This document shows, piece after piece, positions 50,605-57,099 of a DNA stretch of 64,000 nt. The position numbers and the translations under genes were made by a program. The notes below the pieces were generated by a model. The model had not been told where the DNA came from, did not search any database, and worked only from the letters and a program-made list of their open reading frames with translations. How positions within the stretch are numbered: the first letter of the stretch is position 1; the number at the start of each line of letters is the position of its first letter. The stretch lies in assembly GCF_014643635.1 (NCBI RefSeq), contig NZ_BMJV01000004.1, positions 372,001 through 436,000 of the forward strand, written 5' to 3'. This DNA comes from Salipiger pallidus (GTDB lineage: Bacteria; Pseudomonadota; Alphaproteobacteria; Rhodobacterales; Rhodobacteraceae).

Positions 50605-51168
50605 TTACCGGGTTCCGCGCGACAGGGCGGCAACGCCGGTGCGGGCCACCTCGACAAGGCCCAACGGGCGCATGAGGTCGGCGAAGGCGTCAATCTTGTC
50701 CGGCGCGCCGGTCAGCTGGAAGATGAAGCTTTCCAGTGTCGAATCCACAACATTGGCCCGGAAGATATCCGCAAGGCGCAGCGCCTCGACGCGCTTCTCG
50801 CCGCTGCTCACAACCTTCATCAGCGCCAGTTCCCGCTCGACCGAGCTGCCCTCGGCGGTCAGATCATGCACATCGCGCACCGACACGATACGGCCAAGCT
50901 GTGCCTTGATCTGCTCGATCACCTGCGGCGTGCCGGTGGTGACGATGGTGATGCGGCTGAGGTGACCTTCGTGGTCCACTTCGGCCACGGTGAGGCTGTC
51001 GATGTTGTAGCCGCGCCCCGAGAACAGGCCGATCACGCGGGCCAGCACGCCGGGCTCGTTCTCGACCAGAACGGTGATGGTGTGTGCTTCGCTCACGTCC
51101 GAGAAGGTCGGGCGCAGGTTGTAGGCCGAATGCTTGTTCGAGCCCTTCTTGATCTGTAGTGCGGACAT
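50605..51168 (-). CDS. ilvH: Acetolactate synthase small (regulatory) subunit
   Basis: IlvH activates the catalytic subunit and confers valine feedback inhibition on acetohydroxyacid synthase. The protein has 187 residues. The N-terminal ACT domain reads ITVLVENEPGVLARVIGLFSGRGYNIDSLTV, the standard signature with the valine-binding glycines, and the second ACT-like domain starts near residue 105 (ERELALMKV). The ATG at 51168 follows GAGGAACCGGCGAA. It is normally directly downstream of ilvB; here 839 bases and an oppositely oriented gene separate them, so it likely has its own promoter, although none is clear. Confidence 0.94.
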   Translation of the reverse strand: MSALQIKKGSNKHSAYNLRPTFSDVSEAHTITVLVENEPGVLARVIGLFSGRGYNIDSLTVAEVDHEGHLSRITIVTTGTPQVIEQIKAQLGRIVSVRDVHDLTAEGSSVERELALMKVVSSGEKRVEALRLADIFRANVVDSTLESFIFQLTGAPDKIDAFADLMRPLGLVEVARTGVAALSRGTR

Positions 51169-51343
51169 TTCGCCGGTTCCTCTCGCTTATGCCACCGGTT
51201 GAGTGGCTGAGTTCGTTCAATGTTGTCAGAGTTGCCAGATTGGAGACGCAGTGTTGACACAATCTGCCGAAACCCGGTTTCTCTCGTTTTCGTGACTCCT
51301 CTTGCGGTTGATGCCGCGGACACCTGGCAGAGGAGAAAATAGG

Positions 51344-51796
51344 ATGTTCGGACTTTCCAAGCTTTTCGGAAGCAAGCAGGACGACAACCATACCGACGGC
51401 GGCCTGAACGTGGACCTGCTGGCCGACGTGGAGCTCGCCGGAGGCGACTTGCGCGATGTGGATGCCCTCGCAGATGTGGATCTCGACGAGGACGGCCTTG
51501 ATACCGATGTCCTCGCCAGCGTGGACGTGCTGGACGATGACGGCGTCAACGTCGATGCGCTGGCCAGTGCCGACTTGGGCGAGGACGGGATCGAGGTGGA
51601 TGCCCTATCTCTGGCCGAGGTCGGCGCCGATGAGCATATCGACCTTGGCGCCCTTGCGGATATCGACGTGGGCGATGACGTGAACCTCTTCGCGATCCTC
51701 GCATCCGGCGTTTCGGGCGGCGGAGAATATGGCGGTGACGCGGGCCACGATGACGGCTGTGGCTGTGACGACGGGCTTCTGGACGACATCCTGTAA
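51344..51796 (+). CDS. Acidic tandem-repeat protein of unknown function
   Basis: This 150-residue protein is extremely acidic. After a short basic start (MFGLSKLFGSKQ) it consists of about six imperfect repeats of 15-16 residues between residues 20 and 115: ADVDLDEDGLDTDVL, ASVDVLDDDGVNVDAL, ASADLGEDGIEVDAL, SLAEVGADEHIDLGAL, ADIDVGDDVNLFAIL. The last 30 residues are Gly/Asp-rich with two cysteines (DDGCGCDDG). There is no signal peptide or membrane segment. The regular spacing of hydrophobic and Asp/Gly positions suggests a solenoid, possibly Ca-binding, or a DNA-mimic; both are guesses. The start is the ATG at 51344 with a strong AGGAG upstream and a TTGACA at 51254-51259. It lies between ilvB and ilvH on the opposite strand. 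Confidence 0.6.
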   Translation: MFGLSKLFGSKQDDNHTDGGLNVDLLADVELAGGDLRDVDALADVDLDEDGLDTDVLASVDVLDDDGVNVDALASADLGEDGIEVDALSLAEVGADEHIDLGALADIDVGDDVNLFAILASGVSGGGEYGGDAGHDDGCGCDDGLLDDIL

Positions 51797-52007: not shown

Positions 52008-53762
52008 TCAGACCAGAACGGCGCCCTTGCCGGCGATCGCGTTGGTCGCCTGCGCATCCCCGAGCAGCATCTTGTTGTGCGGCTCGCCCGACGGGATCAT
52101 CGGGAAGCAGTTCTCGTGCTTCTCGACGAGGCAGTCGAAGATCACCGGGCCATCGTGCTTGATCATCTCCATGATCGCGTCATCAAGGTCCGCGGGATCC
52201 TTGCAGATGATGCCCTTGGCTCCGAAGGCTTCGGCCAGCTTGACGAAATCGGGCAGCGCCTCGGACCAGCTGGAGCTGTAGCGCTCGCCGTGCAGCAGCT
52301 GTTGCCACTGGCGCACCATGCCCAGCCGTTCATTGTTGAGGATGAACTGCTTGACCGGCAGGCGGTACTGCACTGCCGTGCCCATCTCCTGCATGTTCAT
52401 CAGCCACGAGGCTTCGCCCGCCACGTTGATCACGAGGCTTTCGGGATGCGCCACCTGCACTCCGACCGAGGCCGGGAAGCCGTAGCCCATGGTGCCAAGG
52501 CCGCCCGAGGTCATCCAGCGGTTGGGATCCTCGAAGCCAAGGAACTGCGCCGCCCACATCTGGTGCTGGCCCACTTCGGTGGTGATGTAGCGGTCCATTC
52601 CCTTGGTCAGCGCCTCGAGCCTTTGCAGCGCGTACTGCGGCTTGATGGTGGTTTCAGACCCGGTGTATTTCAGGCAGTTGGCCTGCTTCCATTCCTCGAT
52701 CTGGCGCCACCACTTGGCAAGGCCCTCACGGTTGACCTTGCGGCCGCGCGCCTTCCAGACCTTCAGCATGTCCTCGAGCACGTGGCCCACATCCCCGACG
52801 ATCGGCAGGTCGGTCTTGATGACCTTGTTGATCGACGAGGGGTCGATGTCGATATGCGCTTTCTTCGACTTCGGAGAAAACGCGTCGAGCCGCCCGGTGA
52901 TCCGGTCGTCGAACCGCGCACCGATGTTGATCAGCAGATCGCAACCGTGCATGGCGAGGTTGGCCTCGTAGAGACCGTGCATGCCGAGCATCCCCAGCCA
53001 GCCCTTGCCCGATGCGGGGTAGGCGCCAAGGCCCATGAGGGTCGAGGTGATCGGAATGCCGGTGGCATCCACCAGCTCGCGCAGCAGCTGGCTGGCCGCG
53101 GGGCCCGAGTTGATGACGCCGCCGCCGGTGTAGAAGACCGGACGCTCGGCGTTCTCGATGGCCTCGACAAGGGCGGTGATCGTTTCCATGTCGCCCTTGA
53201 CCTGCGGCTGGTAGTGACCGACCGGCGCCTTGGGCTTGGAGGTGTATTCGGCGGAAGCGAACTGCACATCCTTGGGAATGTCGATGAGCACCGGGCCGGG
53301 GCGGCCGCTGCTGGCCACGTGGAAGGCCTGATGCAGGGTCGACGACAGCTTGGCGGTGTCCTTCACCAGCCAGTTGTGTTTCGTGCAGGGGCGGGTGATG
53401 CCCACGGTGTCCGCCTCCTGGAAGGCGTCCGAGCCGATCATGAAGGTCGGCACCTGCCCCGAGAGGCACACCAACGGAATGCTGTCCATCAGCGCATCGG
53501 TCAGGCCGGTGACCGCGTTGGTCGCTCCGGGGCCCGATGTCACCAGCGCAACGCCGACCTTGCCGGTCGAGCGGGCATAGCCTTCGGCGGCGTGCAGGGC
53601 GGCCTGCTCGTGACGCACGAGGATGTGCTGGATGTCGTTTTGCTGAAAGATCTCGTCATAAATCGGTAGAACGGCGCCGCCGGGGTAGCCGAATACCGTG
53701 TCCACGCCCTGGTCCTTGAGGGCCTGAACCACCATTTTCGCTCCGGTCATCTGACGTGTCAT
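52008..53762 (-). CDS. ilvB: Acetolactate synthase large (catalytic) subunit
   Basis: This 584-residue thiamine diphosphate enzyme condenses pyruvate with pyruvate or 2-oxobutyrate, the first common step to valine, leucine and isoleucine. The N-terminal domain has the catalytic glutamate in RHEQAALHAAEGYARSTGKVG. The central FAD-binding region and the C-terminal ThDP motif (GEASWLMNMQEMGTA..) with NNERLGMVRQWQ are complete. The ThDP-binding motif is usually GDASF.MN; here GEASW is seen, an unusual but interpretable variant. I chose the ATG at 53762 (MTRQMTGAK) after GGAGACACGC. Upstream are a leader peptide and attenuator. Confidence 0.95.
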   Translation of the reverse strand: MTRQMTGAKMVVQALKDQGVDTVFGYPGGAVLPIYDEIFQQNDIQHILVRHEQAALHAAEGYARSTGKVGVALVTSGPGATNAVTGLTDALMDSIPLVCLSGQVPTFMIGSDAFQEADTVGITRPCTKHNWLVKDTAKLSSTLHQAFHVASSGRPGPVLIDIPKDVQFASAEYTSKPKAPVGHYQPQVKGDMETITALVEAIENAERPVFYTGGGVINSGPAASQLLRELVDATGIPITSTLMGLGAYPASGKGWLGMLGMHGLYEANLAMHGCDLLINIGARFDDRITGRLDAFSPKSKKAHIDIDPSSINKVIKTDLPIVGDVGHVLEDMLKVWKARGRKVNREGLAKWWRQIEEWKQANCLKYTGSETTIKPQYALQRLEALTKGMDRYITTEVGQHQMWAAQFLGFEDPNRWMTSGGLGTMGYGFPASVGVQVAHPESLVINVAGEASWLMNMQEMGTAVQYRLPVKQFILNNERLGMVRQWQQLLHGERYSSSWSEALPDFVKLAEAFGAKGIICKDPADLDDAIMEMIKHDGPVIFDCLVEKHENCFPMIPSGEPHNKMLLGDAQATNAIAGKGAVLV

Positions 53763-53974
53763 CGCGTGTCTCCGTTTACGACGTCGTACTCTTGTAGCCC
53801 ACTGTACGAGGGCCTTCGATCTGCCCGCAGGGGGGCGTGGTCTTGGGCACCTATCCGGGCTTGCGGGTGAACACCTGGTCGGGTGTCTTCCATATAAGCC
53901 GCCCGTAAGGCGCTGTCTTGCGGGCCCTCGGGAGAGGTGCCCTTGTGCGGGCACCTTGCATGTCCCGCGGCAAC

Positions 53975-54002
53975 AAAAAAGCCCCCGAAGATTTTCGGGG
54001 GC
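53975..54002 (-). terminator. Attenuator terminator in the ilvB leader
   Basis: In transcript order GCCCCCGAA-AATC-TTCGGGGGC forms a perfect 9-bp stem with a four-base loop, followed by TTTTTT. It lies 28 bases after the leader peptide stop and 212 bases before the ilvB start, so it must be bypassed for ilvB expression. Confidence 0.9.
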
Positions 54003-54045
54003 GCATGGGGTCCTGAAAGGGTGTCCGGTCTACCGGCCCATGCGC
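54001..54045 (-). promoter_or_regulatory. Antiterminator stem of the ilvB attenuator
   Basis: GCGCATGGG (54045-54037, inside the last leader codons) is an exact complement of CCCATGCGC (54009-54001). Formation of this 9-bp stem takes two bases of the terminator's 5' arm and would compete with it. A ribosome stalled on the branched-chain codons leaves GCGCATGGG free; one that reaches the stop codon covers it. Confidence 0.65.
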
Positions 54046-54077
54046 GCGTTTCCTACAATGCCTACCAGCCGTGCCAT
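54030..54077 (-). CDS. ilv leader peptide, 15 residues
   Basis: The minus-strand ORF reads MARLVGIVGNARMGR and stops at TAG. Codons 4, 5, 7 and 8 are Leu, Val, Ile and Val, the three end products of the pathway. AAGGAG lies eight bases before the ATG, and a sigma70 promoter about 30 bases upstream would give a very short untranslated lead. The terminator and the competing stem follow directly. All this fits a translated attenuation peptide controlling ilvB; the assignment comes from the arrangement itself. Confidence 0.85.
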   Translation of the reverse strand: MARLVGIVGNARMGR

Positions 54078-54104
54078 GGCGCGGTCTCCTTTGTTACAGG
54101 GCGG

Positions 54105-54133
54105 ACCATATGAGCGGCCAGTTGTCGCGTCAA
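54105..54133 (-). promoter_or_regulatory. Sigma70 promoter of the ilvB leader
   Basis: On the minus strand TTGACG (54133-54128) and TATGGT (54110-54105) are 17 bases apart. Transcription would begin near 54098, about 20 bases before the leader peptide start. Confidence 0.7.
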
Positions 54134-54184
54134 CCTGCAAATGGCCCCGAAATGCATCGTTCAGAAGTGTCTATATTTCATTAA

Positions 54185-54197
54185 GTTGCTAGGCAAC
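54185..54197. promoter_or_regulatory. Palindrome GTTGC-TAG-GCAAC
   Basis: A perfect 5+3+5 inverted repeat lies in the 319-base region between the ilvB leader and the small membrane protein gene, among AT-rich sequence. It may be an operator for either side; no regulator is assigned. No gene is seen in this gap. Confidence 0.35.
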
Positions 54198-54396
54198 ACG
54201 AAATTCGGCAATTTTCGGAAAGTATTTTGGCCAATTGCGACATGGGCCGGCGTCCGGAAGTGATTCAGCACAGGCTGGCGAAGCTTTGCCTGTAACAGGG
54301 GCTTTCGCCTTCGTGAGTTGCCGTTCTGCCGCTGTTCTGGCATCCTTGCATCAAGTTCCGGTCAACCGGGCCACATGCCGACGAGGGAGTTTGCTC

Positions 54397-54615
54397 ATGT
54401 CTAGGATCAGTCGTTTTCACCGCAGCGTGCGCAATTTCGATATGGTGCGCGCCGGGGTTCTCGTGGTGCTTCTCGGGATTGGGTTCTTCCTGACCCTTGG
54501 ACAGGCGGACGATGACCTGATGGCCCATGATGGCGAGGAGCATTCGCTCGTGGTGCCGGCCTCGGGCATCGACATGGGCACCGCGCAACTGGCGCAGGCC
54601 GGCCCACTGGTCTGA
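54397..54615 (+). CDS. Small single-pass membrane protein, 72 residues
   Basis: I do not recognise this protein. A basic N terminus (MSRISRFHRSVRNFD) is followed by one hydrophobic segment, VRAGVLVVLLGIGFFLTLG, at about residues 17-36, and then an acidic tail (QADDDLMAHDGEEHS) predicted to lie in the periplasm. The start is the ATG at 54397, 9-10 bases after GAGGGAG. The frame is open further upstream but without a ribosome-binding site. A strong terminator follows 40 bases after the stop, so it appears to be a single-gene unit, which supports its being real. Confidence 0.55.
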   Translation: MSRISRFHRSVRNFDMVRAGVLVVLLGIGFFLTLGQADDDLMAHDGEEHSLVVPASGIDMGTAQLAQAGPLV

Positions 54616-54789: not shown

Positions 54790-55425
54790 TCAGCCGTTTA
54801 CGCCGGTACCCTGCAGGACGCCATGTTCAAGCGCGTAGCGGGTGAGGCCGGCGGTGGAGCTGATGCCCAGCTTGCGCTTGATGTTCTTGCGGTGGGTTTC
54901 CACCGTGCGCACCGAGATGTCGAGCGCGATGGCCACTTCCTTGTTGGACTTGCCCTGTGCCAGCTGCAGCAGCACCACCTGTTCGCGGTTGGTGAGTTGC
55001 TCGCGTCCGCCGGACATCACCGGGCGCAGTGCGCCTTCGGCACCGGTGCAGAGGTAACGCTCGCCCGCCATGACCGCGTCGATGGCGCGCTTGACCTCCT
55101 CGGAGGGCACGTCCTTGAGCACGTAGCCCGAGGCGCCGTGGCCGAGCGCGGTGGAGACGTATTCCGGTGTGTCGTGCATCGAGAGCACCAGCACCCGGGT
55201 TTCGGGGCGCTGCTCCAGGATCATTTCGGTTGCCGAGAGGCCGCCTATGCCGGGCATGTTGAGATCCATCAGGATCACGTCAGGGGCCAGCTCTTCGAGC
55301 CGGTCGACGATCTCCTGTCCTCCGGAGAGGGTGGCGACGACAGTGATATCGTCGTAGCCGTCGAGGATGGCCTCGATGCCCTCGGCCACGAGGGGATGGT
55401 CGTCGACGATCACGACACGGGTCAT
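54790..55425 (-). CDS. NarL/FixJ-family response regulator
   Basis: This 211-residue regulator has a receiver domain with acidic pocket D8-D9, phospho-acceptor D54 in ILMDLNMPG, S82 and K104. A LuxR-type HTH follows at about 145-205 (LTNREQVVLLQLAQGKSNKEVAIALDISVRTVETHRKNI pattern). It activates or represses transcription after phosphorylation. Its ATG overlaps the stop codon of the upstream histidine kinase (ATGA), so the two are translationally coupled. The pair is divergent from a TRAP transporter operon, the likely target. Confidence 0.93.
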   Translation of the reverse strand: MTRVVIVDDHPLVAEGIEAILDGYDDITVVATLSGGQEIVDRLEELAPDVILMDLNMPGIGGLSATEMILEQRPETRVLVLSMHDTPEYVSTALGHGASGYVLKDVPSEEVKRAIDAVMAGERYLCTGAEGALRPVMSGGREQLTNREQVVLLQLAQGKSNKEVAIALDISVRTVETHRKNIKRKLGISSTAGLTRYALEHGVLQGTGVNG

Positions 55426-56840
55426 GCGCTTGCCTTTGGTTGCGAGCGGCCCTCTTCGGGGGGCAGCAGGTGCGAGAGCGGGATCTGCGCTTCGATAACC
55501 GTCCCATGGCGCGAGGACAAGACGCGCAGGGCCCCTCCCAGTTGATCCATGCGCTCTTGCATGTTGCGCAGGCCAATGCCCCTGCGTCCTTCCTGCGGGG
55601 CTGGGGGGATGCCGCTGCCATTGTCGCTGATCCGCAGGGTGCAGCCCTTGCGGTGGCCACGCAGGTCCACGTCGACGCGGGTGGCCTCGGAGTGGCGTTC
55701 GATGTTGGTCAGCGCTTCCTGCGCGATGCGGTAGAGCGCGATACGCCCCTCCTGGTCGATGCGGTTGCGGAACACCACCGTCTCGAAGCTGGCTTCAATG
55801 CCGGTGCGGGTCGTGAAGTCGTCCACCAGAGCCTTGATCGCTGGGCCAAGTCCGAGATCGTCAAGCACGCCGGGCCGCAAATCGCGGCTGATGCGGCGCA
55901 CCTCCTGAATGGCGCCGGAGAGGTTGCCCTGGCCGCGCTCGAGCGCCTCGGCCGCGCGGGGATCACCGGTGGTGACCCGCCGCTTTGCAATGTCGAGCGC
56001 GTATTTCACGCCCACGAGGATCTGGCTGATGCCGTCATGCAGTTCCCGCGCCACGCGGCCCCGTTCCTCTTCCTGCGCATCGAAGACGCGCTGGGTGAGT
56101 TCCTTGAGCTTGGCGTCCGCCAGCCGCCGTTCGCGCAGGTTCATCACGAGGCCCGACAGGAACACCGTGAGCAGCGCCGCCAAGGTGATGCCGCTGATGT
56201 AGAGAAAGGTCTGGCGCACGCGTTCTTCGACACCCGCGCGGGCCAGCGCGACCTGGTCGACAATGTCGTCGATCCACACCCCGGTGCCCACCGCCCATTG
56301 CCAGTCCTGAAAGCCCAGCACGAAGGTGATCATCCGCGCCTCTTCCCCGGTCGAGGGCTTGGGCCAGAGATAGCTGTGATAGCCCGAGCCCGCGCGCGCA
56401 AGTTCGATCAGGCGGTCGGTGATGGGCGTGCCCTCGCTGTCGGTCATGCCGGTCCAGTCGCCACCGATGAGTTCCGTGTGGCGGGGTGAGACGAGGTTCA
56501 CCCCGTCGTAATCGTAGACGAAGAAGGATCCGTCCTCGCCGTAGATCATCGCGGCAAGGATCTGCGCCACCTCGCGCTTGGAGGCTTCGTCGTCGGGTGC
56601 GGCGCCGCCATAAATGAAGTAAAAGCCGTTGCGCGCTTGCGTCACGTAGTTGCGCAGCTCGGCCTTCTTGGTCTCGATCAGCTGGATCTCGAGCGCTCGG
56701 ATCTCGCGGTCGGCCATCTCCCGCGATTGCCAGGCCACCACCACGGCGATGGCTGCCGCCGCGAAGATCAGCGGCAGCGAGGCAAGGAGGAACAGTTTCT
56801 GCCCGTAGCTCAGGTGAAGACGGTCGAGAATCGCACGCAT
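55422..56840 (-). CDS. Cache-domain sensor histidine kinase, HisKA_3 type
   Basis: The protein has 472 residues. A membrane helix at about 16-37 is followed by a periplasmic single-Cache domain (about 40-205, with FYFIYGG, GEDGSFFVYDYDGVNLVSP and ITFVLGFQDWQWAVGTGVWI), which in relatives binds carboxylates or small solutes. A second helix lies at 211-235. The HisKA_3 dimerisation/phosphoacceptor box has H268 in RVARELHDGISQIL, and an HATPase domain contains SDNGSGIP and GIGLRNMQERM. I chose the ATG at 56840 (MRAILDRLHLSYGQK); the frame is open 126 bases further upstream. It is coupled to the NarL-type regulator and divergent from the TRAP genes. Confidence 0.92.
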   Translation of the reverse strand: MRAILDRLHLSYGQKLFLLASLPLIFAAAAIAVVVAWQSREMADREIRALEIQLIETKKAELRNYVTQARNGFYFIYGGAAPDDEASKREVAQILAAMIYGEDGSFFVYDYDGVNLVSPRHTELIGGDWTGMTDSEGTPITDRLIELARAGSGYHSYLWPKPSTGEEARMITFVLGFQDWQWAVGTGVWIDDIVDQVALARAGVEERVRQTFLYISGITLAALLTVFLSGLVMNLRERRLADAKLKELTQRVFDAQEEERGRVARELHDGISQILVGVKYALDIAKRRVTTGDPRAAEALERGQGNLSGAIQEVRRISRDLRPGVLDDLGLGPAIKALVDDFTTRTGIEASFETVVFRNRIDQEGRIALYRIAQEALTNIERHSEATRVDVDLRGHRKGCTLRISDNGSGIPPAPQEGRRGIGLRNMQERMDQLGGALRVLSSRHGTVIEAQIPLSHLLPPEEGRSQPKASA

Positions 56841-57099
56841 GTCATTGGATATGCCGTGAGGCGGGCCGCTGTCCAAACCTGTTTCCCCGCCCGCCCTAAG
56901 ACGATGATGCGCGCCGACGCTGGCCGAAAAGCCCATACAAGTGCCGCAAATTTCCGCAGCGTCCACGCAAGATAAATGCTCAACTCCGTAGCACTGGGTA
57001 TTTTGCGGATAGCGTTCACGTTCTAGTGTGCCTGCTACGTAACGATCCGCGCGGGACCGGGAGGAGCTGGGGACCGCTCGTCAAATCGGGAGGACACAC

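Follow-up and report, generated by a model that had tools for sequence, protein, structure and literature searches.

A conserved RNA switch upstream of ilvB

We identified a real and strongly conserved RNA switch upstream of the acetolactate synthase gene ilvB in the Roseobacter/Rhodobacter group, which very probably acts as a ribosome-mediated transcription attenuator of this gene. Its parts, its conservation and the compensatory changes in both of its stems are directly established. This kind of switch is already known, and the Rhodobacterales ilvB element is a detailed addition to it, the added details being the theft of two to three pairs by the antiterminator, a stop codon placed in a conserved hairpin, and regulatory codons that are rare synonyms. 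It represents a well-supported, widespread control element for branched-chain amino acids in one bacterial order, without an Rfam match.

The copy described here lies on the minus strand of a 64,000-nt stretch of the Salipiger pallidus genome (the whole stretch analyzed, hereafter the window). An earlier note on this DNA had read a promoter, an AAGGAG, a 15-codon peptide, two competing stems and a U6 tract from the minus strand, all of which agree with the sequence base for base. It had also pointed to Leu, Val, Ile and Val codons within a row of five, and these were confirmed as part of codons 4-8. The features of the locus are as follows.

54105..54133 (-): sigma-70-type promoter TTGACG-17-TATGGT (direct reading of the sequence and consensus scan)
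54133-54128, minus strand: -35 box TTGACG, spacer of 17 to the -10 box
54110-54105, minus strand: -10 box TATGGT
54086..54091 (-): Shine-Dalgarno AAGGAG of the leader ORF (sequence)
54030..54077 (-): leader ORF MARLVGIVGNARMGR, ATG...TAG, 15 codons plus TAG (sequence; leaders of relatives)
54054..54068 (-): regulatory codons 4-8, CTG GTA GGC ATT GTA (Leu Val Gly Ile Val)
54037..54045 (-): antiterminator 5' arm GCGCATGGG, from the end of codon 11 to codon 14 (sequence, helix calls, pair counts)
54025..54036 (-): small hairpin CCGG-UAGA-CCGG, placed inside the antiterminator loop and holding the stop codon in its own loop
54012..54020 (-): tentative second small hairpin CCU-UUC-AGG in the antiterminator loop, seen only in the single-sequence MFE fold and variable among relatives in the leader comparison
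54001..54009 (-): antiterminator 3' arm CCCATGCGC (sequence, helix calls, pair counts)
54001..54002 (-): the two bases, and no others, common to antiterminator and terminator
53981..54002 (-): intrinsic terminator stem-loop, arms GCCCCCGAA and TTCGGGGGC, 9 bp, loop AATC
53975..53980 (-): U6 tract of the terminator, T6 in the DNA (sequence)
53785..53974 (-): extra segment between terminator and ilvB, about 170-190 nt, not in relatives
52008..53762 (-): ilvB, acetolactate synthase large subunit, 584 aa (NF006581 (NCBIfam), 1130 bits)
50605..51168 (-): ilvN, acetolactate synthase small subunit, 187 aa (profile match)

Four hallmarks of an attenuator are present: a translatable leader ORF with a ribosome-binding site upstream of ilvB, regulatory codons for the pathway's own products (four of the five in the window), an intrinsic terminator between leader and ilvB, and a 5' arm so placed that a ribosome at the stop codon would cover and mask it. 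The ilvB start that agrees with relatives is the ATG at 53762, 218 nt past the terminator.

When a 150-nt segment was shuffled 20,000 times with its dinucleotides kept, 2 shuffles produced a terminator with T5 and 8 or more perfect pairs, and 0 produced such a terminator together with a 9-bp antiterminator; on this ground we rejected a chance origin of the window element. The folding energy of the element as a whole stands out only mildly (z = -1.68; equally good folds in 16 of 200 shuffles), so energy alone is no proof; the proof is conservation. Rfam, including the T-box and ppGpp riboswitches, gave 0 gathering matches in the window, and a permissive Rfam scan of 53700-54400 returned sub-threshold hits only, with E of 0.61 or worse. 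A weak Leu_leader match in locus L020 (25.7 bits, gathering 50) was set aside as lying outside the ilvB leader: it ends at 1119, and the element starts at 1330.

In the window, about 840 bp separate ilvB from ilvN, and a plus-strand ORF of 164 aa in this interval (51302-51796) carries a degenerate acidic repeat (LADVDLDEDG-like runs) without a Pfam match. Upstream on the same strand as ilvB (54790-56966, minus) lie a LuxR-type response regulator and a Cache-domain histidine kinase.

Leader codons, promoter and gene context are conserved across the order

The earlier note had proposed an alignment of ilvB upstream regions and named missing conservation of the leader codons or stems in relatives as the outcome that would speak against it; in the alignment, both codons and stems turned out to be conserved. 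From 137 distinct ilvB upstream regions (family plus genus) we extracted 133 elements, 20 of them from the window's own genus. Four regions (L110, L130, L137, L147) were dropped for want of a leader call or U tract, the upstream region of genome G021 stood outside the 137, and a few leader calls among the 133 are doubtful (e.g., L140, L148, L149). Exactly 15 codons with Met13 were found in 102 of the 133 leaders, or in 82 of the 113 from outside the window's genus. Among these 102 canonical leaders, Leu, Ile or Val occupy all five of codons 4-8 in 81 cases, four in 17, three in 3 and two in 1, so that 98 of 102 keep at least four of the five; relatives mostly read L-V-V/L/I-I-V at these positions, and the C-terminal RMGR of the peptide is nearly invariant. 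When loci from public genome records are taken by themselves, 67 of 80 are canonical, and the 13 non-canonical ones comprise eight that are one codon longer or shorter and one with only 101 nt of upstream DNA. In L279 (Nereida), another of these 13, a leader was not found upstream of ilvB.

The promoter is conserved as well. In 105 of 133 regions, the pattern TTGACN-(16-18)-TANNNT lies no more than 110 nt before the leader start; a control stretch located further upstream contains it in 0 of 133. Of the remaining 28 regions, 25 carry TTGAC without the full box pair.

A covariance model, R1, built from 94 elements and used with a match threshold of E <= 0.01, matched 112 of 121 genomes of the order; among the 104 order genomes outside the model and earlier samples, 96 matched. 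In 14 of 14 model-matched loci checked, ilvB lies directly downstream on the same strand. The window copy scores 96.6 bits (E = 7.6e-20), and its genome has no second copy, the next model match having E = 5.3. Nine of the 121 genomes are without a model match, including all six sampled from one genus (g24). The one locus of this genus that we read (L137, genome G023) keeps the TTGAC promoter, with no leader or terminator visible between promoter and ilvB, which suggests that genus g24 may have lost attenuation as a lineage. Elsewhere, genome G024 carries two ilvB copies (L019 and L062) with their own, different leaders, MADIVILVGKWRMGR and MGPILVVPKRMRMGR.

Outside the family, we viewed 60 of 138 ilvB upstream regions (L157 offers only 89 nt) and recognized by eye leaders of the same layout and other sequence in four of the 60 (L160, L167, L198, L210). 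All four belong to other alphaproteobacterial families, and the L210 leader has a poor U tract.

Both competing stems show compensatory changes

Pairs were counted in an alignment of 94 rows (A1), the set left once near-duplicates had been removed from the 111 of 133 elements that passed an in-register helix filter, a filter that favors the structure in these counts. In the antiterminator and stop hairpin together, 93.9% of cells are paired and both-side changes occur at 6 of 13 pairs, against a mean of 1.3 in shuffles, none of 500 of which reach 6; slid registers are 22-60% paired. The terminator is 95.3% paired with both-side changes at 5 of 8 pairs (shuffle mean 1.4; 0 of 500 reach this). 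Both stems of the earlier note are thus kept in relatives with compensatory changes. Taken alone, the antiterminator has both-side changes at 3 of 10 pairs, in three cells from one row each (L094, L131, L073), the small number being due to arms that are nearly invariant.

Row L094 has T as its leader base, A as its shared base and T as its last terminator base, with both alternative pairs kept; the same three positions read C, G and C in 77 of 94 rows. We withdrew this row as a clean triple covariation, because T at the last terminator base is also seen with the shared G, as a G-U pair, in 15 of the other 93 rows, which leaves two of its three changes as special, in a single sequence. A leader before an MFS transporter gene (L334, see below) has the same T-A and A-T set.

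That the two stems share only two bases, and that kinetics may therefore matter, had been remarked in the earlier note; this is correct and proved to be a family-wide feature, with an overlap of two bases in 42 and of three in 69 of the 133 elements (two to three in 111). The antiterminator 5' arm begins 13 or 14 nt before the stop codon in 110 of 133. The best helix and the called terminator stem do not overlap in 17 of 133 elements, partly through failed calls (e.g., L093, L148) and otherwise in divergent leaders, which the model does not explain. Divergent leaders of the family without overlap are L099, L127, L141, L142, L145 and L150.

The stop codon is itself part of a structure. Relatives form the hairpin CCG-GUAA/GUGA-CGG, in exactly this form in 61 of 102 canonical leaders, whose GNRA-type loop is made of the stop codon and the preceding base; the window's CCGG-UAGA-CCGG is a register variant. 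Both-side changes occur at each of its three pairs (8 cells in A1), and 26 cells are unpaired, partly from rows in shifted register. The hairpin likely promotes a quick joining of the two antiterminator arms.

A proposed mechanism acting on the terminator foot

We infer the transcription start, stalling, masking, read-through and the sufficiency of stealing the bottom pairs, in the following order. RNA polymerase would start about 20 nt upstream of the leader ORF, as predicted from the -10 box, with a ribosome following behind. With ample charged tRNA-Leu, -Val and -Ile, the ribosome would reach the stop codon and cover codons 11-15, hiding the 5' arm, and the 9-bp terminator would then close fully and end transcription before ilvB. 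When these tRNAs are scarce, the ribosome would stall at codons 4-7 (or 8) and leave the 5' arm free to pair with the 3' arm, and the antiterminator would remove two pairs at the foot of the terminator (in many relatives three), beside the U tract, allowing read-through. The switch should permit the first enzyme of Leu/Ile/Val synthesis only on amino acid shortage. Conservation of codons, stems and promoter supports the attenuation reading of the earlier note; its further step, that stalling would favor the antiterminator, we likewise infer.

We computed equilibrium folding for 94 elements with the polymerase placed at the stem foot and the arm free, hidden by a ribosome at the stop codon, or shuffled. 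For the bottom two terminator pairs, the median probability was 0.45 with a free arm and 0.99 with a hidden or shuffled one (0.62 versus 0.99 in the window copy), and the upper terminator pairs kept a median probability of 0.95 with a free arm. In these predictions, the free arm contests the terminator foot and does not replace the terminator. Since the upper pairs persist, switching has to depend either on the bottom pairs or on kinetics. In the general view of intrinsic termination, closing the bottom stem pairs melts the RNA:DNA hybrid; a contest at the foot would therefore suffice, or kinetics would add to it. The element offers a natural test of the minimal antiterminator overlap needed: if two or three stolen stem-foot bases suffice in vivo, this would support the view that closure of the last pairs commits the polymerase to intrinsic termination.

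Leader and terminator might instead chiefly yield an sRNA and/or a peptide acting elsewhere, with ilvB control secondary, in the manner of Sinorhizobium rnTrpL/peTrpL. Functions of the sRNA and peptide derived from the trpL attenuator are described in reports on an alphaproteobacterium (PMC7298713; PMC10117765), and an RNA released here would be short and highly conserved. We nevertheless consider this unlikely, because the conservation is already accounted for by the codons and the two alternative stems, a pure sRNA would give the antiterminator pairing no role, and the element adjoins ilvB in every one of the 14 loci checked.

The window copy compared with its relatives

Within the attenuator family, the window copy looks weaker than usual. 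Gly at codon 6 occurs in 2 of 102 leaders, namely the window's and L144; the antiterminator has 9 bp, as in 45 of 133 elements, compared with 10 bp in 60 of 133; and about 170 extra nt precede ilvB, the distance from terminator to ATG being 218 nt as against at most 95 nt in 128 of 133 elements. In none of 19 further genus genomes does the additional DNA (53790-53975) occur before ilvB; four genus genomes other than its own have matches of at most 31 bases, which are not before ilvB. We rejected it as a repeat or mobile element, given its one match in its own genome. An inverted repeat, GGTGCCC...GGGCACC, lies within 53785-53974.

These deviations could mean that the attenuator of this species is decaying or bypassed, having acquired Gly6 at the cost of one regulatory codon, lost its tenth pair and gained about 170 nt of new DNA with a possible control site or promoter. 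The rarity of Gly6, the long distance to ilvB, an extra segment that is unique in its genome and the weaker competition at the bottom pairs (0.62 left paired, median 0.45) would all fit. We regard this as distinctly unlikely, however: promoter, Shine-Dalgarno, ORF, stems and U tract are all intact, the model match is strong (96.6 bits, E = 7.6e-20), 9-bp antiterminators are common, and a simple consensus scan of the minus strand between terminator and ilvB finds no other sigma-70-like promoter. Judging from the model score, the window copy probably still works, if less strongly than usual.

Regulatory codons are rare synonyms

The regulatory codons of the leaders are rare synonyms. In the 67 canonical loci from public records, GTA makes up 91 of 174 Val codons at positions 4-8 compared with 152 of 3414 in the ilvB genes, and CTA makes up 38 of 85 Leu codons at these positions compared with 46 of 3507. 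The window leader, too, uses GTA for both of its Val codons, a synonym that makes up 58 of 1108 Val codons across 37 window ORFs; its Leu codon is the common CTG. A preference for the Leu codon CUA is common to the Salmonella leu leader, as presented in PMC1183508, and the Rhodobacterales ilvB leaders, and the choice of this rare codon fits the codon-sensitivity theory and the CUA experiment cited in that paper.

This codon choice bears on whether the element might be a general translation sensor, responding for example to translation-blocking antibiotics and not to branched-chain amino acids. A stall of any cause at codons 4-7 would do, and related modules precede Bcr/CflA-family transporter genes (see below), but Leu, Val and Ile codons and their rare synonyms are kept before ilvB, a gene that makes these very amino acids, and we hold such a sensor to be very improbable. 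It is scarcely credible that the leader peptide, for all its nearly invariant RMGR end, is a functional small protein with incidental RNA pairing, and we rejected peptide function as the main cause on nucleotide-level conservation and paired changes: the RMGR codons are near-invariant as nucleotides (CGC 99/102, GGC 89/102, CGG 93/102), the coding arm changes together with its non-coding partner in a few rows, and divergent members pair with another peptide ending, e.g., GCGCAGTCGC/GCGACTGCGC in L099.

Relation to known attenuators

In the enteric ilv, leu and trp attenuators, as proposed here, a stalled ribosome exposes an arm that disturbs the terminator. Enteric leaders form long, mutually exclusive hairpins with a whole arm in common, plus a protector hairpin. 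In contrast, antiterminator and terminator of the Rhodobacterales ilvB leaders overlap by 2-3 bases only, and the single-sequence fold of the window leader contains no protector (1:2) hairpin.

The precedent given in the earlier note was enteric, and it holds, but the mechanism is not enteric only. An alphaproteobacterial ilvB leader peptide has already been described (Corbino et al. 2005, PMC1273637, citing Vitreschak et al. 2004); by the description in the citing paper, it concerns the same gene in the same bacterial class. Caulobacter crescentus ilvBN, in the account of PMC4117421 citing Tarleton et al. 1994, is likewise controlled by attenuation, with a leader of tandem Ile and Val codons and a rho-independent terminator. 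The ilvB-II uORF motif of Corynebacterium resembles our element in its Ile/Leu/Val-rich uORF and terminator-complementary antiterminator before ilvB (PMC11109978; PMC10272879); on its published description we set it apart as belonging to another phylum and being reported there only in Corynebacterium. The Rhodobacterales cysS uORFC-8-2 motif, also a candidate for ribosome-mediated attenuation in the same order, differs by its description in Cys codons, the cysS gene and other stems (PMC8632094). In a literature search by title, we recognized no paper as describing this Rhodobacterales ilvB element.

A related module precedes Bcr/CflA-family MFS genes

Model R1 also matches outside ilvB, where Val/Ile-rich leaders of the same layout precede a Bcr/CflA-subfamily MFS gene, whose product scored above the TIGR00710 cut-off for both proteins tested. 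We tentatively propose, with somewhat more doubt than confidence, that the ilvB attenuator is one branch of an alphaproteobacterial module that would also control Bcr/CflA-family MFS genes in many families and block only the hybrid-melting terminator pairs. Such a module would consist of a leader some 15 codons long, rich in Val and Ile and with Arg-rich sequence at its end, a stop codon in a GNRA-type hairpin, and an antiterminator stealing only the bottom 2-5 terminator pairs, and it would couple the MFS transporter to valine supply or to ribosome stalling. As regulators of the transporter, the MFS leaders are putative; their position offers a testable clue to the transporter's role. Nothing on an attenuator before a Bcr/CflA MFS gene was recognized in the literature searched by title.

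A class sample of 385 genomes yielded an MFS homolog at E <= 1e-110 in 16, with a query that itself came from a module-bearing gene and so biases the sample toward finding the module. By eye, a leader precedes 11 of these 16 homologs, in 10 families (L352, L353, L355, L356, L358, L369-L372, L374, L376), and the other five are without one (L354, L357, L359, L373, L375). In the window's family, 4 of 30 fetched homologs have a leader by eye (L322, L329, L334, L340) and the other 26 do not; three more MFS leaders were retrieved through the model (L312-L314). Under a stricter rule, an objective scan gave a count of 9 out of 45. Weak model matches at L301, L302 and L315-L319, which have no convincing leader, were treated as chance. 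The window's genome encodes an MFS homolog of 43-47% identity (L360), with no such leader in the upstream stretch read.

Across several alphaproteobacterial families, the MFS leaders are mostly Val-rich (e.g., MITVVVVVMRERRVDR and MHILIVVVGERRLDR). In several of them a central mismatch interrupts the antiterminator, the terminator of L356 is a different one without overlap, and L372 contains only one Val codon. In many alignment rows, ilvB and MFS leaders have in common the frame GGCGC...CCGGTAACGG...ATGCGCC(C/T)CC. The same attenuator layout before a Bcr/CflA-family MFS gene is also seen in L297, L298, L299 and L300.
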